Source of the DNA: a virus
Direction: 5' to 3' (one strand)
IMG/VR virus record: IMGVR_UViG_3300036852_000133
Location: 1 to 34,246 of that record
Length of the DNA: 34,246 bases
The notes beneath the pieces were generated by a model. That model saw only the letters and a program-made list of their open reading frames with translations. It searched no databases and was not told where the DNA came from. Shown in pieces: positions 2,792 to 33,847 of this stretch. Positions within the stretch are counted from its first letter, which is position 1. Every line of letters begins with the position of its first letter. Position numbers and translations under genes: made by a program.

Positions 2792-3724
2792 TTAATACCC
2801 CTTCGGCTTGAAGAGATCGAGAACGCGACCCCAGAATGTCGGCGCAAGATCGGTTCGAGCCTTGGTGCCGGGAGGGGGCAGTACGATTTCAGGTGGGACA
2901 GGGATCGTTGGAATGGGCTTGCCGGCCGCTAGTGCAGTGTCCAGTGCGGCAAAGGTGGCGGGGCCAACCAAACCATCGGCGACGAGCCCGCTGCTCAATT
3001 GGAAGGCGCGGACAGCGTTGCGCGTAGCGGGGCCAACAATGCCATCGACCTCGATTTGCGGGTTGGCACCGAGCTTGTTGAGGGAAGACTGAAGCCATGC
3101 TCCATCCTTCTCAATAATGGCCGGACTTGGCGGAAGGGTTGTGGTCTGCGTAATGGCACCACCATCGAACTTGATCGATGAATCGAGCGACATCATCGCC
3201 ATGATCAGGCCGGCGCACCCGAGCTGCTTATCAACCTCGCCGGGGTCGAACACGCCGTCGGCAACGTATTTGCCTTGCTTATACTGGTCGGTTCCGGACC
3301 AAATATATGGTGATGGTAGCCCGCGGCTGAGATAGCCGAGGCCATTGTATTGCTCCAGCTTCGCCAGCGTACCGCCGATTGACCAATCCTTATTCCGGGC
3401 TGCGTAGGGAGCGCAGTTCACCAGAGCGTCGTAGGCGGCCTCCTCCCACGATTGGAATGGTCCTCGGCCGGCCGGAACGTGTGTCGAGACCTGATTCCAG
3501 GGGTCACCCTGCGCCAAGCTGCGCGACCAGTTTTGCGACGATTCCCGCTGATGCGTCACGGCGATAAACGGCCACGGAATGCCGGTCTTTTGTGAGACGG
3601 TCAGATAGCGCTGTTTCGCTGCAACCAGCCGCTTCGCTACCGGCAGGAACTCCGGCCCGCGCGTCAATTTTGCTGCATTCCAGCGCCGAACGTTGGCGTC
3701 CTTCAGCTTGACCAAATCAGCCAT
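2792..3724 (-). CDS. Endolysin: lysozyme-like domain plus peptidoglycan-binding domain (310 aa)
   Basis: Degrades host peptidoglycan at the end of infection. Residues about 25-185 look like a lysozyme-superfamily muramidase (PFIAVTHQRESSQNW with a candidate catalytic Glu at 61, then GRGPFQSWEEAAYDAL and LAKLEQYNGLGYLSRG). Residues about 208-262 form a PG_binding_1 repeat (LQSSLNKLG...VDGIVGPATRNAVRAFQ...ADGLVGPAT). A Pro-rich stretch follows. No signal peptide, so export depends on the holin genes downstream. A strong AAGGAGG lies upstream of ATG 3724, inside the loop of a hairpin. The exact glycosidic bond cut cannot be read from sequence. Confidence 0.9.
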   Translation of the reverse strand: MADLVKLKDANVRRWNAAKLTRGPEFLPVAKRLVAAKQRYLTVSQKTGIPWPFIAVTHQRESSQNWSRSLAQGDPWNQVSTHVPAGRGPFQSWEEAAYDALVNCAPYAARNKDWSIGGTLAKLEQYNGLGYLSRGLPSPYIWSGTDQYKQGKYVADGVFDPGEVDKQLGCAGLIMAMMSLDSSIKFDGGAITQTTTLPPSPAIIEKDGAWLQSSLNKLGANPQIEVDGIVGPATRNAVRAFQLSSGLVADGLVGPATFAALDTALAAGKPIPTIPVPPEIVLPPPGTKARTDLAPTFWGRVLDLFKPKGY

Positions 3725-3729
3725 GGCGA

Positions 3730-3754
3730 GCCTGAAACCTCCTTAGATTCAGGC
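3730..3754 (-). promoter_or_regulatory. Leader hairpin presenting the endolysin ribosome-binding site
   Basis: Inverted repeat GCCTGAA (3730-3736) / TTCAGGC (3748-3754), 7 bp perfect, with an 11-base loop. In the leftward transcript the loop contains AAGGAGG, the Shine-Dalgarno of the endolysin. A stem with the site exposed in its loop may tune translation of the lysis operon. The pairing is seen; the role is inference. Confidence 0.5.
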
Positions 3755-3774
3755 ACTTTTACCCGTGGCAAAAT

Positions 3775-3789
3775 TGATTTGTATAGGGG
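3775..3789 (-). promoter_or_regulatory. Candidate late promoter motif, copy 2 (lysis operon)
   Basis: On the minus strand this reads CCCCTATACAAATCA, identical over 15 bases to 27176-27190. Both copies sit about 50 bases upstream of a leftward ATG (here 3724). TATACA could serve as a -10 element, but no TTGACA-like -35 is present at the expected distance, so an activator-dependent promoter or phage-specific polymerase site is possible. Confidence 0.45.
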
Positions 3790-3840: not shown

Positions 3841-3984
3841 ATGCCTCAAGTTGACGACGAAAAAGATCGAGAAACTGCTGCGTTGAAAAAGCTTGCGGAG
3901 GCTGCCGCAGAGCTGGCAAAACTGAATAACAAGAGGCCCCTTACAAGAGAAGAGGCAGAAGATCTGACGCGCAGATCGACTTAG
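3841..3984 (+). CDS. Small charged helical protein (47 aa), rightward
   Basis: ATG 3841 with CGGAG about six bases upstream, TAG at 3982-3984. The product is almost wholly charged helix (DDEKDRETAALKKLAEAAAELAKLNNKRPLTREEAEDL). It is transcribed against its leftward neighbours and ends one base before the tailspike stop, so the two genes are tail to tail without space for a terminator. Function unknown; possibly a moron or small regulator. Confidence 0.5.
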   Translation: MPQVDDEKDRETAALKKLAEAAAELAKLNNKRPLTREEAEDLTRRST

Positions 3985-13212: not shown

Positions 13213-14849
13213 ACGATCGCTCCCTTTTCCATCGTTACGTCAAAAGCGTTTACTTGCAGAACAATCTCATCCGCAATGGTCACTCCCCATGTTGAGACAC
13301 CCCAAACCCCGGTACCCCACACGCCCGGCTCACCGAGCGGGGCTCCTGCAATATCCACCGCGAGCCGGATCGAAGCGCAGTATCCGATACCATCAACCGA
13401 ATTCCAGTTCGCCTGGGTCCGGACATCCCCTGTCCAGATTCCTTGATCCCACAGCGCCACATCCCACAGCGACGCAGCAACAATCTGTGTTGATGGAATT
13501 GAGAGAGGCGCATCGTCCCGGAAGTCGACGTTGAGCGCCAAGCCCGGGTTAACCTGCCCGTCCGTAGTCAATTGCGGACGACACATGGTCCAGCGCTTTT
13601 GATTGCCCCGGATCCCATAGTAATTATAGGCTGTCAGCATGTCAGCCTTTAGCGCGTTGCCGGCATCGTTTCCTGAAGTGTCCGCCTTGTAGACAACCCC
13701 GTCGTTGCCCCCGAAATACAGATCCTCATTGAGCAATTCCCAGCAATTCGCTTTCATGCCGATGAACTGACACCACGCTCCGGAAAGCGTGTTCATGACA
13801 TACTGGACCTGATCGGTGTTTTCCTCGATCGGGACATTGAGGACCGCCCGCGTCCCTCGGGGATAGGAAATCAATTGCCAGCCGAAATTATTCCGGTAGA
13901 GCCTTGCTGACTGGTTCATCACCCGCTGGATACGTTCCGTCAGCGATACCTTTACGACCGCGGCGCGCTCGAAGATCATCGCCCGCGACAACGGCACAAC
14001 ACCATCGATGCAGATCAGGGCAATGTCAGCCCCTACCCGCGTCATGCAGCGACGGCCGATCGGCGCGCCCATGTCGAACACGCCGACAAGTGCCCATGTC
14101 GCTGCCGTTGCCGGATCAGTCCCTTGATAAATCGCACACTGGCCCTGCGATGACAGGAACACGGCATAGTCGTCCGGGCCGTCACCTGCATCGATCGACC
14201 ATGTGCCCATCGCCATCAGAAATCCGCCCTTGGTGAACAGGCCTCCTAATGGGAACGTGACGGCCGCGCCCTGGATCGAATCGACAGGGAGATAAGCCGC
14301 GTCAGACGAACCCGTCAGTGTAAACCACAGCCGGTTCTTGAAGGCATTGACGTGGATGATATCGGAGGAGGAAATGCCCGTAATGACGGCGGTTTGCCAC
14401 GTCGCGCCATCCCAGTATTGCGGGACATCGGCGCCATTCACCATGTAGAGGAAGTTGCCCCCAGTGGTGGCGAAATTCACATATTGGAAACGGGAGTTTG
14501 CCAGCCCCGAGACCTGGAGCACTCCAGCAGAATTTGCCGTCACATCATAGATTGAGCCGCCCGACACCGCAAACATGGTTCGTGTCGAGACGCCGTTATA
14601 AGTCGCCAGCGTTTCAACGGGGTCTGCTGCAGTCGATGAGTGGATGATATGACCCTTGCGAACCTCGATCCAGTCCGGTTGCGGAAACCAGTTGTCCATC
14701 TTCACCGCGCGCTTGGGAGACATCGCGGCAATAGGCGAAACAGCGTCCCAGCCCTCTACTGGGCTTGGTTGCGACGCTCCAACCGAAACTTGAGCGCCAC
14801 CTAGCTTTCCAACAGCCGACCGTCCTTTGAGAGTCGCAGTTAAGCGCAT
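13209..14849 (-). CDS. Tail-accessory / DNA-stabilisation-like virion protein (546 aa)
   Basis: Beta-rich protein with repeating short blades (TMFAVSGGSIYDVTA; FLYMVNGADVPQYWDGATWQ; FKNRLWFTLTG; DYAVFLSSQGQCAIYQGTDP; DIALICIDGVVPLS), like the beta-propeller tail proteins that plug the portal in P22-type phages (gp10 position). The C-terminus has Trp-rich repeats (VWGTGVWGVSTWGV). Position fits: downstream of portal, coat and the 16316 connector. The name is by synteny and composition, without a specific motif. Confidence 0.7.
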   Translation of the reverse strand: MRLTATLKGRSAVGKLGGAQVSVGASQPSPVEGWDAVSPIAAMSPKRAVKMDNWFPQPDWIEVRKGHIIHSSTAADPVETLATYNGVSTRTMFAVSGGSIYDVTANSAGVLQVSGLANSRFQYVNFATTGGNFLYMVNGADVPQYWDGATWQTAVITGISSSDIIHVNAFKNRLWFTLTGSSDAAYLPVDSIQGAAVTFPLGGLFTKGGFLMAMGTWSIDAGDGPDDYAVFLSSQGQCAIYQGTDPATAATWALVGVFDMGAPIGRRCMTRVGADIALICIDGVVPLSRAMIFERAAVVKVSLTERIQRVMNQSARLYRNNFGWQLISYPRGTRAVLNVPIEENTDQVQYVMNTLSGAWCQFIGMKANCWELLNEDLYFGGNDGVVYKADTSGNDAGNALKADMLTAYNYYGIRGNQKRWTMCRPQLTTDGQVNPGLALNVDFRDDAPLSIPSTQIVAASLWDVALWDQGIWTGDVRTQANWNSVDGIGYCASIRLAVDIAGAPLGEPGVWGTGVWGVSTWGVTIADEIVLQVNAFDVTMEKGAIV

Positions 14850-24934: not shown

Positions 24935-26797
24935 CTACAACTGAATGAAGCCGGTAGGCGGCGTCCACGGATACGGCACGCTGTTGGCCACAACCGATAT
25001 GCCGCCTGACCAAGCACCGACGCCGCCGTACACCGGACCAGTCCAGTTTTGCGCAGTGCTATTCGTCCCGGCAACCACCTGCGCCAGCGTCGCAAGCGAA
25101 CCGATGCCGATAAAGTTGGTGCCGTCTTTCGTCCACCAGACCTGTTTGGTAATCGGATCAACCACGACGCCGACCGTATTGCCATTCGTGAAGCCGCCAA
25201 GACCCGAGTTCGGAGACGCGGCCCCTGTAAACACACCACCGCTCTGATACCAGCCAGCGCCACCAGTGAGTGCCGGGCCGAATCCCATGTCAACGTTGAC
25301 GTCTGCCGCCGTCACAATCCCGGCGTTCGTGAAGTTCGCCACGCCGGAGACAAACGTGAAAGCGAACACCGATTTGGCCGTGATGGGGTTGACCAGATAG
25401 GCAATGCTGCCATTGCCCAATGTGGCGGTCTGCATTGTCGTGACCAACATCACAGGCACAGCACCGCTCGACTTATACCCGGGCGGATTGGGGAAGTACC
25501 TCAGCGCACCGTTCGCGCCACGAGCGGATAGCGACGGGATGCCGATGCCTGCTTGAGCACATTTGGCAAGCTCAAGCCATCCTGGGTTGACGAAGTGGAG
25601 CTGGTCGGCGTTGTAGTAAAAGGTATCGGCAGGGTTTTGTAGCGTCGGCCATGCATCGAAGTCCATCAACCATGTCGCGCCCCAAGAGAGATAGTTGGCG
25701 CGAATTAGTGGATTCAGTGCATTGAGAATGGTTTGAGCGGCTGGATTGTCGCCTCGTTTAGGGACCGTGCCAACAGCGACTTTGTAGCCGGTGGCGAGGG
25801 CAAGGCCTATATGGGTTTGAATATTCGTTGCGATTGTCGCCGCGGCGACACCACTGCCGGCATCGTTGGTGCCCCCCATAAACAGGTAGGTGTTAGCTGT
25901 GGGTGCGTTGAATGAAGTACCCCCTTGAGTTGGGTAGTCAGCATTCATCCCTGGAACAGTCGCGCCACCAACGGCCCAGTTTGCAGCTACGGCGATGCCG
26001 ACATTGCGCGACATGTCACTGGGATAGTTGCCGGCGAGGCCAGTGCCAATGGTGAGGCTATCACCTTCGGCAACAAAGCCCTTCGGAGCTGGCCCCCACG
26101 CCACGGAAATGATGTTATGCGGGCAGGCGACGCTGACCGTAATCGTCGGCGTAAAGGACCCGCTCGTATTGTAGAATCCGGCCGCGATCGTCGATGCGCC
26201 CTCAATGGCTAGATACGTGGGCACTCCAGCATCATTGACGCTCGCGGACCACGACGCCGTAGCAGCGCCGTCGAGATAGGAATCGAACACAATGCCGACG
26301 CCGCCGTTGGGAACCGTGAGATTGCCGGTCGCTTGAGTAGCGCCAAACCCGGTCCCTGCCGCCGGAGTCGATACAGGCGTTGAATTAGCTGTGGTTATCG
26401 TGAATATCTCAATGCCGCAGCGTGCCGCGGTACCGCTTGCAACCGGAACAACGATGGTTGCCGTTGTCCCGGCGGGCATAGGAAATTGGAAGATGCCAGC
26501 GCTGTTGGAGGAGCCAGCGCCGCTGACAGCCCGCGAGGCCGTCATCGTATTGCCGCCAATCGTTGGCGTGCCGACGACAGTACCTCCTCCCGAGGAGGTC
26601 ATTGCCACGCAGACGACAACGACCCGATCAGCGCTAGGCGTACCAATATCAGAGTCGAGGAACGTATAGGATGCGGGCGAGACTACATCCGCAACGTCGG
26701 TATACCGATTGACGTAAGTGATAGTCGCAGGAGCCACACCAGACCCGGCGCCGCCGCCCTTCCCCCACATTCCCATCGAAAGCGACAGGCTGGCCAT
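24935..26797 (-). CDS. Virion protein with SGNH/GDSL hydrolase domain (620 aa)
   Basis: N-terminal Thr/Ser/Gly-rich beta region (1-235) is followed by an SGNH hydrolase: FVAEGDSLT (Ser247, block I), YLFMGGTNDAG (Gly309, Asn311; block III), and DQLHFVNPG (Asp398, His401; block V). The C-terminus (about 520-600) resembles a SPRY-like lectin domain (GVVVDPITKQVWWTKDGTNF). It would deacylate a surface glycan, perhaps acetylated O-antigen or exopolysaccharide. Location between terminase and portal is unusual for a receptor-binding protein. Tail, fibre or head fibre cannot be decided. Confidence 0.8.
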   Translation of the reverse strand: MASLSLSMGMWGKGGGAGSGVAPATITYVNRYTDVADVVSPASYTFLDSDIGTPSADRVVVVCVAMTSSGGGTVVGTPTIGGNTMTASRAVSGAGSSNSAGIFQFPMPAGTTATIVVPVASGTAARCGIEIFTITTANSTPVSTPAAGTGFGATQATGNLTVPNGGVGIVFDSYLDGAATASWSASVNDAGVPTYLAIEGASTIAAGFYNTSGSFTPTITVSVACPHNIISVAWGPAPKGFVAEGDSLTIGTGLAGNYPSDMSRNVGIAVAANWAVGGATVPGMNADYPTQGGTSFNAPTANTYLFMGGTNDAGSGVAAATIATNIQTHIGLALATGYKVAVGTVPKRGDNPAAQTILNALNPLIRANYLSWGATWLMDFDAWPTLQNPADTFYYNADQLHFVNPGWLELAKCAQAGIGIPSLSARGANGALRYFPNPPGYKSSGAVPVMLVTTMQTATLGNGSIAYLVNPITAKSVFAFTFVSGVANFTNAGIVTAADVNVDMGFGPALTGGAGWYQSGGVFTGAASPNSGLGGFTNGNTVGVVVDPITKQVWWTKDGTNFIGIGSLATLAQVVAGTNSTAQNWTGPVYGGVGAWSGGISVVANSVPYPWTPPTGFIQL

Positions 26798-26800
26798 GTA

Positions 26801-27127
26801 TTATACGCCATTACCCGGCGTGAAGTAGACAATCGGCGTTCCAGCCGTGCAAATCGCAGCTACGTGCGTCGTGCCCTCTGGAACGGAAAAGCCGCCTGTC
26901 TCTCCGGGCCCGATCGGCATAGATCCTGGCGTTGCCCCTGCAGGGACGGTAGCAACGACGGTTGAATCGCCGAAGTTGATATAGGCAATGTCCGTGGTGT
27001 CGATGTTCTTGACCCGGATTACCATAGCTGCGGCAGGCTTGGTCAGTGCAACTCTGGCCGAGACCACACCTGACGTAATGGAAGTGGTACCCTGCGCCTT
27101 CGGGGCAAATAGATTGATGCCGGACAT
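26801..27127 (-). CDS. Small beta-rich virion-type protein (108 aa)
   Basis: INLFAPKAQGTTSITSGVVSARVAL, VIRVKNIDTTDIAYINFGDSTV and EGTTHVAAICTAGTPIVYFTPG form a single beta-sandwich-like composition common in decoration and fibre-cap proteins. It is the first gene after the candidate late promoter at 27176-27190 and after a hairpin covering its ribosome-binding site. Three bases separate it from the SGNH gene, so it may be a partner or assembly factor for that protein. Confidence 0.65.
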   Translation of the reverse strand: MSGINLFAPKAQGTTSITSGVVSARVALTKPAAAMVIRVKNIDTTDIAYINFGDSTVVATVPAGATPGSMPIGPGETGGFSVPEGTTHVAAICTAGTPIVYFTPGNGV

Positions 27128-27129
27128 GT

Positions 27130-27155
27130 TTGTCGCCTCGCGTGAATGGCGACAA
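27130..27155. promoter_or_regulatory. Perfect 8-bp hairpin in leader / intergenic region
   Basis: TTGTCGCC (27130-27137) and GGCGACAA (27148-27155), ten-base loop. In the leftward transcript the Shine-Dalgarno GAGG (27139-27136) of the 27127 gene lies half in the loop and half in the stem. On the plus strand the hairpin is followed by TCTTTTAT, so it could instead terminate rightward transcripts. Confidence 0.5.
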
Positions 27156-27175
27156 TCTTTTATGTGCGTCGAATC

Positions 27176-27190
27176 TGATTTGTATAGGGG
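27176..27190 (-). promoter_or_regulatory. Candidate late promoter motif, copy 1 (structural operon)
   Basis: Minus strand CCCCTATACAAATCA, identical to 3775-3789. It starts immediately after the terminase stop and lies 49 bases upstream of ATG 27127. No -35 hexamer is evident. Spacing to the start is almost the same as in the lysis copy. Confidence 0.45.
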
Positions 27191-28678
27191 CTACATGCGG
27201 CGGCGCTTCTGCCGCTTCCGCTCTTTCCAAAGGTCTTCCATCGTCACGCCACGCATTCCGGGGGGAAGCGTAAGAGGGCCACCAACCACGAGAGCGCGAT
27301 CCGGTAAAGCAGGCTGCGCCGGCACGATCTCCCGATAAGCCATGGCCAGATATCGAAATGCATCGGCCGGATGGCTGGTCCAGTCATGCAACGGCTCATC
27401 CCTGAATTTCTTCTTCTTGTCGTCCCATTCGGACTGATACTGCCTAAGTGCCTCTAGCCCGTGTGCACATCGCGCCTCATCGAACCAGCAGCGGTGCAGG
27501 ATCTGCCGCACCGCAGAAATGCCGTCCTGTACTGAATGCAGCTTGACGACCTTTACGCGAGCCTGCCCGAACTGCTCGGCCATTACCTCAATACGCTGCT
27601 TGGCTTTCAGGGTGTCCGGATCCCAACTTCCTTGTTCACGGACTGTAGCGTCGTGAGGAACGTAGTTGATACCGAGCCTGAATCCTTCGCCGCCCTTGGC
27701 TCGATCTTCTGTATCCCAATAGGAGATTCGTCGCTTAACCTCGTCAGTGTAATGCTTAATCCCGTAGCCGTGGGCAGTATAATAATCGAGGATTTTGATT
27801 TGTCCGCGCCCTGCACTGCTAGGCACAGCCTGCCAGAACCAGATCGGATTACTATCACCGACGCCCAGGTCCCATGCGGTATGTATTGGCACCCCTTGCG
27901 TGGGCTCAACATCTGTAATTCGTCCTTGCTGCTCTGCGGTGGCCAGCTCTTTGCCATAGTAGCTACCGAGAATAGCCGCCTCAAAGCTGCACCAGTATTC
28001 CTGCTGGATCAGGGCCTCTGCCGCCTCCTCGCCGAACAGCGAGACATATCCTGCCTTGGCTTCCGCGATCTGCTCATGCGTTACTTGATGCGTATCGCCC
28101 ACTGTAAGGACTTGGGAGAACCACGTTGCTGGCCGCTCTCTGGCCATCTTGAGCATACCGTGGACGTGGTTGCGGCCGCGCGGGGTTGTGATGAAGTCGG
28201 CCCATCCTCCGTTCTCTAAGAGGATCGGTTGGAGCAACCCCCACGCGGATGGATTGGATATGGCCCATTCAGAGAACGCGATTCCAAGCGGAGGGGCACC
28301 CACAAGGGAATCAGGATTATCAGACCCAACAACGCGATAAACTGAACCAGTCTTAAACTCAATGACCATGCCGCCATTATCAGTTCTCTTCCTGATCTCC
28401 ATGGGGAACGCTTCATCGATCCTCTTCCTTCCTGAATGCGGATTAACGGCTTCCCAAATGGCTTTGCGGGCCTGTTCATACATCGGGAGGCAATGCCAGT
28501 AATTCGCCGGCCTGAGCTGGCTTGCAACTGCAAATTTCTGCAAACTCAACTCGTCCTTGCCAGCGCGACGATGCCAAACCAAGAGCGACCGCTTGATGCC
28601 CTTTTCCCACGCGGCCCATGCTGGCATTTGGTAAGGTCTTGGCCGCCAGCCGTTAGCCGGTATGACGATTTTGGGCAC
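27191..28678 (-). CDS. terL: Terminase large subunit (495 aa)
   Basis: ATPase and nuclease that packages DNA into the procapsid. Visible motifs: adenine-site YQMPAW (16-21), Walker A WHRRAGKDEL (35-44), Walker B LGIAFSEW (131-138), coupling motif TTPRGRN (164-170), nuclease start AWDLGVGDSNPIWFW (268-282), PHDATVREQG (341-350) and the last acidic site at SHPADAFRYL (435-444). Full length for the family. The stop is followed directly by the candidate late promoter, so terminase is the end of the upstream operon rather than part of the late one. A small gene (28653-28829) overlaps its start. Confidence 0.95.
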   Translation of the reverse strand: MPKIVIPANGWRPRPYQMPAWAAWEKGIKRSLLVWHRRAGKDELSLQKFAVASQLRPANYWHCLPMYEQARKAIWEAVNPHSGRKRIDEAFPMEIRKRTDNGGMVIEFKTGSVYRVVGSDNPDSLVGAPPLGIAFSEWAISNPSAWGLLQPILLENGGWADFITTPRGRNHVHGMLKMARERPATWFSQVLTVGDTHQVTHEQIAEAKAGYVSLFGEEAAEALIQQEYWCSFEAAILGSYYGKELATAEQQGRITDVEPTQGVPIHTAWDLGVGDSNPIWFWQAVPSSAGRGQIKILDYYTAHGYGIKHYTDEVKRRISYWDTEDRAKGGEGFRLGINYVPHDATVREQGSWDPDTLKAKQRIEVMAEQFGQARVKVVKLHSVQDGISAVRQILHRCWFDEARCAHGLEALRQYQSEWDDKKKKFRDEPLHDWTSHPADAFRYLAMAYREIVPAQPALPDRALVVGGPLTLPPGMRGVTMEDLWKERKRQKRRRM

Positions 28679-29845: not shown

Positions 29846-30432
29846 GGCATCAGCCTTAGCTTTGGCTTATCGGTTTCAGGAACGGGATCTGGGTCCATTG
29901 CCTGCTCGATCGATACTGCTGACAACAGGCGATTGAGCTTCCAAGCTTGGGCCTTGAACGGTTCAAGTTCCTCTTCGCAAAGGCGCCGTAGGGCACCAGG
30001 GCTCGGCGCGAAATCAATGTTTCCCTTCTCGATATCTCCGCGCACCCAGCGCTTGATTGCGGCGTCGAGAGCCCAAGGCGCGATATCCGAGACAGCGTCG
30101 TGATAGAAATTCAGCCTCGCTTCTGCAGCTTCGTTAGTGGTGTTTCCAGCCGCTGGATATCCCAACATGAGGTTTATCAGGAGCGATAATCTCGCCTTCG
30201 AGCACTCCTTCGGATCCAGATTTGCACCTGTTGTCACCCGCTGAATCTCTTCCAGCCGGCTCGTCAGGTGCTTTCGGTCGTCCTCCGACAGCCCAATTCC
30301 CGAAGGAAAATTCACCCTCGTCGGCTGGCCCGGCCATCTCACCGTCCCCAACGATTTTTCGAGCCGCGCGAAGACCGGCGGCAAAGATAGCAGCATGTCC
30401 AGTCGTTCGCGGATTTCCAGTTCTTTGGCCAT
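29842..30432 (-). CDS. Replication-operon hypothetical protein (196 aa), overlaps upstream gene in another frame
   Basis: Start ATG 30432 (MAKELEIRERLDMLLSLPPVF). The body reads well: SEDDRKHLTSRLEEIQRVTTG, KARLSLLINLMLGYPAAGN, AARLNF-type helix, APWALDAAIKRWVRGD, FAPSPGALRRLCEEELEPFKAQAWKLNRLL. Its first 299 bases overlap the 3' part of the 30134-31021 gene in a different frame; both frames look coding, so dual coding or a wrong start must be considered. Possibly a helicase loader or primosome partner; no motif settles this. Confidence 0.65.
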   Translation of the reverse strand: MAKELEIRERLDMLLSLPPVFARLEKSLGTVRWPGQPTRVNFPSGIGLSEDDRKHLTSRLEEIQRVTTGANLDPKECSKARLSLLINLMLGYPAAGNTTNEAAEARLNFYHDAVSDIAPWALDAAIKRWVRGDIEKGNIDFAPSPGALRRLCEEELEPFKAQAWKLNRLLSAVSIEQAMDPDPVPETDKPKLRLMP

Positions 30433-31021
30433 TTCTAGCTCCAGTAGGCTGATATTTTTTGATATCGCGCATGCGATTGCGCCAAGTGGCTTTCCAGTTG
30501 AGCTTGACGCCCTTGGAGCCAGCAACGCTTGACCAGTAATCAATGAATTGAGGCGTCTCGGCTTCCACGATTTCCGGTGGAATTCCCAAGGACGCGGCAA
30601 ACGCGCGGTCTCCGTCGTCAATTGCGAAGTCCGGTGGAATTCTTGTCCCGCGCGCAATCCTCTTACTTTCTTTCTTTTCCTTAACTTCTTCTTTAACTTC
30701 CTTATTGGAAGCACCTTCTTTACTACTAAGTATACTAGCCACGTCCGGTGGATTCCGGTGGATTCCGGTGGAATGTCCGGTGGACACAGGTGGACATCCG
30801 GTGGAATTTGCGGACATGCGTTGCCGCCTTTTCCGTTCCCTGTCCCATGCACGGCGCTTGTCGATAGTCGAAGTGTCCACCGGACGGACATTCTCCTGTC
30901 CGGTGGAAACGGCCCTCGCCGCCATCGCCTCTTCGAGTGTCGCAACTGCGCTGACAATCAATTCCACCGGAATTCCCTTGCCGTGCATTTCAGCAATCAT
31001 GTTTGCAATCGGAGTTTTCAA
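30134..31021 (-). CDS. Replication protein, DnaT-like C-terminal domain, contains iteron cluster (295 aa)
   Basis: N-terminal helix (ANMIAEMHGKGIPVELIVSAVATL), charged RRAWDRERKRRQRMS at 57-70, a low-complexity stretch (72-125) encoded by iterons and an AT-rich tract, then RIPPDFAIDDGDRAFAASLG ... QFIDYWSS ... WKATWRNRM (127-184), a pattern found in phage replisome-organiser proteins related to the DnaT-type DNA-binding domain. Start overlaps the GapR gene stop (ATGA). The origin inside it (see 30573-30971) is the expected binding target, as lambda O binds ori inside its own gene. Role is inferred. Confidence 0.72.
   Translation of the reverse strand: MKTPIANMIAEMHGKGIPVELIVSAVATLEEAMAARAVSTGQENVRPVDTSTIDKRRAWDRERKRRQRMSANSTGCPPVSTGHSTGIHRNPPDVASILSSKEGASNKEVKEEVKEKKESKRIARGTRIPPDFAIDDGDRAFAASLGIPPEIVEAETPQFIDYWSSVAGSKGVKLNWKATWRNRMRDIKKYQPTGARNGQRTGNPRTTGHAAIFAAGLRAARKIVGDGEMAGPADEGEFSFGNWAVGGRPKAPDEPAGRDSAGDNRCKSGSEGVLEGEIIAPDKPHVGISSGWKHH
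30573..30971. repeat. Iteron cluster with AT-rich tract, probable phage replication origin
   Basis: Ten perfect copies of TCCGGTGGA: direct at 30573, 30630, 30744, 30754, 30764, 30776, 30797 and 30899, inverted (TCCACCGGA) at 30876 and 30963, plus a degenerate copy at 30786. Three neighbouring copies are exactly ten bases apart. A tract at 30661-30740 is 26/80 G+C, far below its surroundings. Iterons next to an easily melted region inside a replication gene form the classical phage origin. Function not tested. Confidence 0.65.
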
Positions 31022-31266
31022 CCCGCCATCCCCAACGCATGCATGTAGCTAGCGAGAATGGCTTCAGCCTCCGCACGCTTGTTCTGGTCCTGCCGGCGTA
31101 TGGCAACGACCTTCCGAATTATCTTCACGTCCAGGCCGTTAGATTTGGCCTCCTGGTAGATTTCCTTGATGCCCTCGGCAATCTCTGCCTTGGAGGCTTC
31201 TTCGCGCTCTACGCGCTCTACAATCGATTTAAGCTGGCTGTTGTCGCCTATTGTCGGCTCGGGCAT
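31018..31266 (-). CDS. GapR-family (DUF2312) nucleoid-associated protein (82 aa)
   Basis: Matches the alphaproteobacterial GapR family: LKSIVERVEREEASKAEIAEGIKEIYQEAKSNGLDVKIIRKVVAIRRQDQNKRAEAEAILASYMHALGM, including the charged EE-K--IAE-IKE-Y-EAK-NG-D-K-IRK helix and terminal YMHALGM. Cellular GapR binds overtwisted DNA and helps chromosome replication. A phage copy in the replication operon, directly before a replication gene, may open or constrain phage DNA or interfere with the host protein. Length is normal for the family. Family identification is strong; role is inference. Confidence 0.92.
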   Translation of the reverse strand: MPEPTIGDNSQLKSIVERVEREEASKAEIAEGIKEIYQEAKSNGLDVKIIRKVVAIRRQDQNKRAEAEAILASYMHALGMAG

Positions 31267-31444: not shown

Positions 31445-31686
31445 CCCGCTGCCCTCTGCATGAACAACGGCGGCGGCTCGATCGCTTCCATGAAGGCCTT
31501 CTCGTCCAAGACGAAACGATGGTCATCATCGATCCACTTGCGCGCGCCGATGAATATTTCATGGATGTGATCGGTAGCGCCGGCATCATCTGCTGCGACT
31601 GTCACGGCCGTTGCTGATGCCGGCGCCATCTCTGCCGGGGGCTGGCTTTCGGCAGAAAGGAATGGGGATTGGGGAATATCGGTCAT
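31441..31686 (-). CDS. Small hypothetical protein (81 aa)
   Basis: Start ATG 31686 in an ATGA overlap with the GcrA-like gene. N-terminal 40 residues are Ala/Pro-rich and disordered; the rest (DHIHEIFIGARKWIDDDHRFVLDEKAFMEAIEPPPLF) is a compact charged segment. A longer upstream frame is a shadow of the GcrA-like gene. Function unknown. Confidence 0.6.
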   Translation of the reverse strand: MTDIPQSPFLSAESQPPAEMAPASATAVTVAADDAGATDHIHEIFIGARKWIDDDHRFVLDEKAFMEAIEPPPLFMQRAAG

Positions 31687-32204
31687 CGGGCATTCTCCAA
31701 AAGCGCGCGGCGGAAATTGATGCCACGCATCCTGCGGGCTCGGGCGTTGGTGACGGCTTCGCTGTTCGTGCGGGCACGCATCTTGGTAAGGTGGAAATGC
31801 TCGGTGCAGTAGGAGCCGCCATCCGTTACTCGGCCGCAGAATGTGAATTGTGGACCTTCGCCGAATGGATACCGGCAGTCGTTCGGTTCGAGCTGGTCTA
31901 GCGTCAGGTGACGCGGTTCGATCTCGGCGCAGCGAAGCTGGATCTCTTCCACACGCGGGAGCGGCTTGATGGCGGCCGCTCGATCTCGGCCCCGCTTCCG
32001 TTTCTTGGGTGCCGCTTTCACCTTCTGCGGCGCCGCCAATCCAAGGCGGTATCCCTTCCCGCATGCTGCGTTGCGGGAGTAGTTGGTGTTGAACTGTGCA
32101 TTCAGCTCGGCTGCGATTTGAGAAAATGATTTGCCGGTAGCCAACATCGTTGTTAGTGCCTCGGATTGTTCATCCGTCCAGATCGTGTTGACGTGCCCGC
32201 CCAT
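31683..32204 (-). CDS. GcrA-family cell-cycle regulator homologue (173 aa)
   Basis: N-terminal helix-turn-helix WTDEQSEALTTMLATGKSFSQIAAELNAQFNTNYSRNAACGKGYRLGL (split over residues 9-56) is the GcrA DNA-binding pattern (SQIAAEL..., SRNAACGK-RLG). A basic linker (KKRKRGRDR) leads to the C-terminal Cys/His part CRYPFGEGPQF, CGRVTDGGSYCTEHF (Cys110, Cys123, Cys133, His136), like the sigma70-interacting region. Host GcrA activates promoters holding methylated GANTC. The phage protein may redirect or imitate this. It heads a coupled run with three other genes. Confidence 0.9.
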   Translation of the reverse strand: MGGHVNTIWTDEQSEALTTMLATGKSFSQIAAELNAQFNTNYSRNAACGKGYRLGLAAPQKVKAAPKKRKRGRDRAAAIKPLPRVEEIQLRCAEIEPRHLTLDQLEPNDCRYPFGEGPQFTFCGRVTDGGSYCTEHFHLTKMRARTNSEAVTNARARRMRGINFRRALLENAR

Positions 32205-33819: not shown

Positions 33820-33847
33820 TTGACAGTCGGATTTTTCCGACTATGCT
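33820..33847 (+). promoter_or_regulatory. Rightward early promoter (putative)
   Basis: Perfect -35 TTGACA (33820-33825), 16-base spacer, -10-like TATGCT (33842-33847; TAT and final T conserved). It would start a transcript near 33854 leading into the gene at 33875. The spacer is operator 5, so the regulator would occlude RNA polymerase. Confidence 0.65.
33825..33842. promoter_or_regulatory. Operator 5, palindrome in promoter spacer
   Basis: AGTCGGATTTTTCCGACT, differing from operator 4 only in the first base. It spans from the last base of TTGACA to the first of TATGCT, the classical place for repression. Confidence 0.7.

Follow-up and report, generated by a model that had tools for sequence, protein, structure and literature searches.

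To our knowledge, the late promoters of temperate alphaproteobacterial phages have been little described. T4 late promoters have the sequence TATAAATA, are read with gp55 and differ from the element reported here, and stoperators are known in mycobacteriophage L5. At T4 middle promoters, as described in the available part of PMC2988021, a MotA box centered at −30 takes the place of the −35 element and lies 12 ± 1 bp from the −10 element. T4 gene e, according to the accessible text of PMC3014915, has a ribosome-binding site that is hidden in read-through RNA and a late transcript that lacks the 5′ arm. GcrA binds sigma domain 2 and stimulates open complex formation at methylated promoters, as far as set out in the available portion of PMC7403470.

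Here we analyze a 34,246-nucleotide stretch of virus DNA (IMG/VR record IMGVR_UViG_3300036852_000133, positions 1 to 34,246; hereafter the window) and report a two-part element that is most likely the on-switch for late genes in a small set of uncultured soil phages. Since the nearest cultured relative is ppBjS10J-1, and an integrase-like protein of the near-complete relative G001 (42,639 bases, with ends that repeat each other) is 72% identical to one encoded there, the phage is likely a tailed, temperate phage of a Bradyrhizobium-like alphaproteobacterial host.

A repeated 15-mer ahead of structural and lysis genes

A sequence-only reading of the window had put forward a candidate late promoter without a normal −35, perhaps dependent on an activator, and this description fits all 11 sites presented below. 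Its starting point was two exact minus-strand copies of a 15-mer, 49–51 bases before ATGs. An exact scan indeed places CCCCTATACAAATCA at 27176–27190 (site A) and 3775–3789 (site B), on the minus strand only, with the ATGs at 27127 and 3724 (49 and 51 bases away, as coordinate differences). Site A begins directly 3′ of the TAG stop of terL. We agree with that reading that no −35-like match lies upstream of the motif, and neither site appeared in consensus scans for E. coli-type sigma-70 promoters (TTGACA-like −35, TATAAT-like −10). The two sites and their surroundings comprise the following features.

27191–28678, minus strand: terminase large subunit gene (terL); PHROG terminase large subunit, E 5e-20
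27176–27190, minus strand: left block of site A (CCCCTATACAAATCA), from the exact scan; proposed −40 to −26
27156–27162, minus strand: right block of site A (TAAAAGA), 13 bases past the left block; proposed −10 element
27150, minus strand: predicted transcription start (+1) of site A; alignment column 41, a purine at 11 of 11 sites
27136–27139, minus strand: GAGG resembling a Shine-Dalgarno at site A, at a distance of 8 bases from the ATG
26801–27127, minus strand: 108-aa ORF that heads the structural operon following site A
3936–3956, minus strand: terminator-like stem-loop between a tail gene and site B; weak, with 10 found in the region against 6.2 expected
3775–3789, minus strand: left block of site B (CCCCTATACAAATCA), from the exact scan
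3755–3761, minus strand: right block of site B (TAAAAGT); proposed −10 element
3749, minus strand: predicted transcription start (+1) of site B, from the alignment of 11 sites
3738–3744, minus strand: AAGGAGG, the Shine-Dalgarno of site B, at a distance of 13 bases from the ATG
2792–3724, minus strand: endolysin-like gene, the first lysis gene, downstream of site B; PHROG lysis families, best E 3.4e-15

A third copy is lacking in the window at up to 3 mismatches, where 0.51 such matches would be expected by chance. The motif is one of six exact same-orientation 15-mer repeats printed for the window, which holds 13 repeats of at least 14 bases in all. Since several other such repeats are present, the pair by itself does not go beyond chance: judged by the window alone it is weak evidence, and a chance repeat is possible.

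Elsewhere in the window, the 108-aa gene and the portal gene are separated by a 620-aa ORF (24935–26797, minus strand), which has no PHROG match and for which no IMG/VR relative was found; it appears to have been inserted recently into the structural operon. At the right end, the best sigma-70-like promoter (33820–33847 on the plus strand, TTGACA-16-TATGCT) contains the inverted repeat AGTCGGA..TCCGACT in its spacer and possibly marks a lysogeny or early promoter region.

A bipartite element conserved in a narrow clade

A chance repeat, which the window alone could not dismiss, was ruled out by the relatives: the motif pair is a real signal because it is conserved there with a second block at fixed spacing. 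The complete element reads CCCTATACAAATCA-N13-TAAAAGT and has 11 distinct sites in seven phage records, namely two in the window, three in G001, two in G005 and one each in G002, G003, G004 and G006. At all nine sites in the six records besides the window, the second block, TAAAA(G)(T), follows exactly 13 bases on. The 15-mer of the sequence-only reading, although real, is therefore the left half only, the block 13 bases on having been missed. As expected of a late promoter, the element is repeated ahead of late operons (11 of 11 sites), conserved in seven records and absent outside the clade. The earlier reading had named a lack of conservation in relatives as a refutation; conservation holds within this narrow clade.

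We scanned IMG/VR for the exact 15-mer and matched 36 stretches. Six of them (L015, L019, L029, L034, L036 and L037), from five contigs, carry the right block at the fixed spacing; in the remaining 30 this block is missing, and they were taken as chance matches. The five contigs are among the window's closest relatives by TerL (71–92%) or, for G005, by tail genes. A relaxed two-part pattern recovered 35 IMG/VR stretches, seven from this group. In GTDB, the same pattern gave 110 stretches, none of which matched more than three of five further consensus positions, and no prophage with the full element was seen.

When 16 records were scanned, 11 had no copy of the motif at up to 3 mismatches; the motif-free G007, an 8.3-kb fragment, has a TerL 85% identical to that of the window. 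Related loci (by TerL, capsid or GcrA) amounting to ~1.97 Mb either carried the element with no more than one mismatch or did not carry it. Matches at 2–6 mismatches numbered only two in the same ~1.97 Mb, both at 6, compared with four in the reversed control. A de novo search of upstream regions covered 21 sequences: in G001, just its three sites exceeded the shuffled maximum (28–30 of 36 versus 23), the window pair was not recovered, an overlapping ORF having been chosen there, and no recognizable analogous element appeared in the 19 other sequences. A fourth, weak copy in G001 at 32177, before terS, was dropped, its right block being missing. In the literature searched, the CCCCTATACAAATCA 15-mer and its 12-mer did not occur and the 11-mer was present in five papers that look unrelated judging by title; no paper on such an element surfaced in searches on GcrA, phage-encoded or in connection with late promoters, and on late promoters of rhizobia.

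At all 11 sites, the element is oriented in the sense of the next gene. This bears on the suggestion, made from the window alone, that the plus strand (TATAGGGG) carries a promoter for a T7-type single-subunit polymerase. The likeness of TATAGGG to such a promoter is superficial, and at every one of the 11 sites transcription would lead away from the late genes. PF00940 is also absent from six motif-bearing records, some of them fragments but including the near-complete G001 (the T7 control was found at 1e-109). We give this reading practically no credence.

Two constrained blocks around a drifting spacer

We numbered positions in an alignment of the 11 sites, counting the first C of the left block as 1. 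In the left block, positions 2 and 4–15 are invariant, position 3 is C at 10 sites and position 1 is C at nine. C23, inside the spacer, is invariant too. In the right block, TAAAA at 29–33 is found at 11 of 11 sites, G34 at 10 and T35 at nine, and position 41 is a purine throughout (A at nine sites, G at two). Flanks are unrelated in 48 of 55 site pairs, for which identity amounts to 99% in the left block, 93% in the right block, 52% in the spacer and 25–31% in the flanks themselves. Such conservation of two blocks at a constant distance, while the bases between them drift, points to protein–DNA contact rather than an inherited neighborhood. The sites are not all independent, as site A and G001_13751 share a spacer and site B of the window, G001_11682 and G005_b are homologous lysis leaders; there are about five or six independent contexts among the 11.

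The gene 3′ of the element varies by record and may be the 108-aa gene, the portal gene, a 55-aa ORF or a lysis gene. Such variation would suit a recombination linker at module borders that marks mosaic joints and has no transcriptional role. However, homology-based joining would not hold two blocks while the 13 bases between them diverge, and the orientation kept at 11 of 11 sites would be unexplained, which makes a linker highly improbable.

The 108-aa gene has its own motif copy after terL in the window (26801–27190) and in G004, and after the lysis genes in G001 (13751–14135, L110); the gene and its promoter copy apparently move together. In the motif-free G007, G010 and L276, the gene is found near terL and the element is missing.

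Proposed promoter register

In some register, the element is very probably a phage late promoter. More specifically, the alignments make it likely that it is a clade-specific late promoter used by host RNA polymerase in the register set out here, with −35 recognition replaced by a phage factor. TAAAAG would be the −10 element (−12 to −7) contacted by the host RNA polymerase holoenzyme, the left block at about −40 to −26 (14-bp core at −39 to −26) would substitute for the −35, and transcription would start ~7 bases past TAAAAG, at position 41; in G001 this would correspond to 11722, 13791 and 34660. A phage-encoded factor, made early, would read the left block, and the late operons would fire only once this factor has accumulated.

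In the portal genes G001_34620, G002 and G006, the A of the ATG is exactly position 41 and no Shine-Dalgarno is found, whereas the other eight sites have a Shine-Dalgarno and leaders of 17–25 nt counted from position 41. With the ATG at +1, the three portal genes would be expressed from leaderless mRNA, and elsewhere a short leader bearing a Shine-Dalgarno would be made. Leaderless mRNAs are known in alphaproteobacteria, with 171 starts given for Sinorhizobium meliloti in the available part of PMC3616915.

Counting against the stated register, TAAAAG is a poor sigma-70 −10, and column 16 is also a purine (A or G) at 11 of 11 sites. An alternative register would place the −10 at CTATAC/TATACA within the left block and the transcription start near column 16–17, consistent with the purine there, with TAAAAG in 5′ untranslated RNA. 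CTATAC also resembles the alphaproteobacterial −10 consensus. However, this register leaves the fixed 13-base spacing to TAAAAGT unexplained and shows nothing conserved in its −35 region. It would moreover give the three portal genes ~25-nt leaders without a Shine-Dalgarno, and would bury the Shine-Dalgarno in every transcript at three sites (0.00 unpaired from column 16). We consider it unlikely and retain TAAAAG as the proposed −10.

The element might instead be an operator or stoperator for a phage repressor that silences the late operons in the lysogen. It is asymmetric, oriented, intergenic and present in few copies per genome, all of which would be compatible with this role, and G001 encodes integrase-like and HTH_3 repressor-like proteins. 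One would expect a repressor to target early promoters, yet the early regions of the window and of G001 have no copy at up to 3 mismatches except that at G001 32177, in which the right block is missing. A promoter is further favored by the promoter-like distance between the two blocks and by the purine where +1 is expected, and we regard the operator as improbable.

Leaders and ribosome-binding-site hairpins

Stem-loops around the Shine-Dalgarno, likewise described from the window alone, exist in both of its leaders (−12.0 and −11.8 kcal/mol over 41 nt) but stand out only modestly from shuffles (z −2.0 and −1.4) and are not common to all sites. At G003, G004 and G005_a, pairing between the spacer and the Shine-Dalgarno region is perfect or almost perfect, and the predicted probability that the Shine-Dalgarno is unpaired is 0.00 in read-through RNA versus 0.37–0.53 in RNA starting at column 41. 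A strong hairpin of this kind is thus found at three of the eight leadered sites, none of them in the window; the other five, window sites A and B included, show no gain in Shine-Dalgarno accessibility. Over the leadered sites, the group test was not significant (p 0.13). We rejected the hairpin as a general feature on this corrected value, a cruder version with a wrong G005_b start and loose Shine-Dalgarno windows having given 0.0006.

The strong hairpins over the spacer at three sites would also suit a conserved RNA leader element that affects translation or processing of read-through transcripts. Against this, five of the eight leadered sites are without such an effect (p 0.13 in the group test with correct starts), the spacing is constant whatever the stem length, and the window has no Rfam match. 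An RNA leader element is in our view very improbable.

Candidate readers of the left block

If the left block is read by an early phage factor, as proposed for the promoter, two proteins encoded in the early region are of interest.

31683–32204, minus strand: GcrA-family protein, candidate activator; PF07750 E 6.5e-25, PDB relatives 7ye1, 5yix and 5yiu
31018–31266, minus strand: GapR-like protein near GcrA; 70% identity to a G001 protein that matches PF10073 at E 1.5e-27

The two genes lie close together, as in G001, and place two alphaproteobacterial chromosome regulators on one phage.

Among the proteins known in these genomes, the GcrA-like protein is the best candidate activator, by correlation only; its cellular relative contacts both promoter DNA and sigma domain 2. 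A GcrA-family protein is encoded in all five motif-bearing records that cover the early region (five of all seven), and the two motif-bearing records without it are both fragments: G005 (10.4 kb, tail and lysis side) and G006 (4.9 kb around terL). Counting against a link, GcrA matches also occur in three of 12 motif-free records (G012, G016 and, below cut-off, G011); the other nine have none. The close motif-free relatives G007 (TerL 85%, a fragment) and G010 (capsid 77%) gave no GcrA match. L271 is a GcrA homologue, 41% identical and with a very similar sigma-binding end; no motif occurs in the 20.5 kb examined around it.

Aligned with one another, the five phage GcrAs from motif-bearing records share an insertion of ~5 residues within the DNA-binding domain, which L271, G012 and Caulobacter GcrA lack. 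A DNA-binding domain changed by this insertion together with a conserved sigma-binding domain in motif-bearing phages would be the mark of a GcrA switch. The idea that the insertion is unique to these phages was dropped, as one of 13 alphaproteobacterial genome hits compared, L355, has it too and 12 are without it (the hits compared being L353 and the best ones from the 12 genomes, among 385, that gave a match). L355 is a GcrA-like protein with the phage-type insertion encoded in an 8-Mb alphaproteobacterial genome (G380, C1:6793549-6794028).

The sequence-only reading had named a GcrA-like activator, and its support is circumstantial: the family match and the five of five early-region records speak for it, but Caulobacter-type GcrA-dependent promoters would call for GANTC, and no GANTC position is conserved across the 11 sites. 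We therefore dropped a link through GANTC methylation; because of this lack of a conserved GANTC, GcrA, if it is the reader, must recognize a new sequence. That the phage has recast GcrA from a sigma cofactor into a dedicated late-gene activator, reading the 14-bp box in place of the −35, is a tentative proposal that we hold to be possible but doubtful. As a separate observation, GANTC is rarer than the Markov expectation in the window (77 observed, 111 expected), G001 (74 and 128), G010 (77 and 133) and ppBjS10J-1 (63 and 123).

Other readers were considered as well. A 78-aa protein (G001 30389–30625) has the same distribution as GcrA and, among the records compared, occurs only in motif-bearing ones. 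Sigma region 2 had no match in any of the eight records searched, and sigma region 4 had below-cut-off matches in three of the eight (G002, G003 and G010); divergent factors could escape this search. A Pfam scan of 31 G001 proteins from the early region and lysis side found GcrA, GapR, ERF, HNH, lysozyme, HTH_3 and integrase families. No known late activator was among the matches of these 31 proteins (structural genes and some small ORFs lay outside the scan), nor were MotA or AsiA.

Comparison with known systems

A sharp, clade-limited two-part element provides a well-defined reporter and narrows the candidate readers to a few. Should GcrA be the reader, a cell-cycle sigma cofactor would have been turned into a viral late switch, and the specificity of GcrA would become testable.

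The Bradyrhizobium phage ppBjS10J-1 (OP596615.1) resembles the phages studied here in its capsid (54%), TerL (45%), similar gene order and GapR-like (DUF2312) protein. It differs in that no motif was seen in the 90-base upstream regions of its 37 minus-strand genes, the late ones among them, and in that Pfam gave no GcrA match. GcrA is likewise phage-borne in phiCbK-like phages, where, in contrast to the role considered here, it is proposed to steer host replication; a link to late promoters is not stated in the available part of PMC3556154. In comparison with the Caulobacter GcrA/sigma-70 system, both domains are present in the GcrA-family protein of the phage. However, Caulobacter GcrA acts at methylated GANTC, which is not conserved at the sites here, and the phage protein has the ~5-residue insertion in its DNA-binding domain.

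An arrangement like that of T4 gene e is predicted at G003, G004 and G005_a, though not at the window's own two sites. The T4 middle promoters differ in the sequence of the MotA box, and the element here is longer and far less tolerant of change. Their −10 is a good sigma-70 match whereas the one proposed here is poor, and the genes served here are late, not middle. In its proposed register, the element nevertheless has MotA-type geometry, with a box at about −39 to −26 that would replace the −35 and lies 13 bp from TAAAAG.
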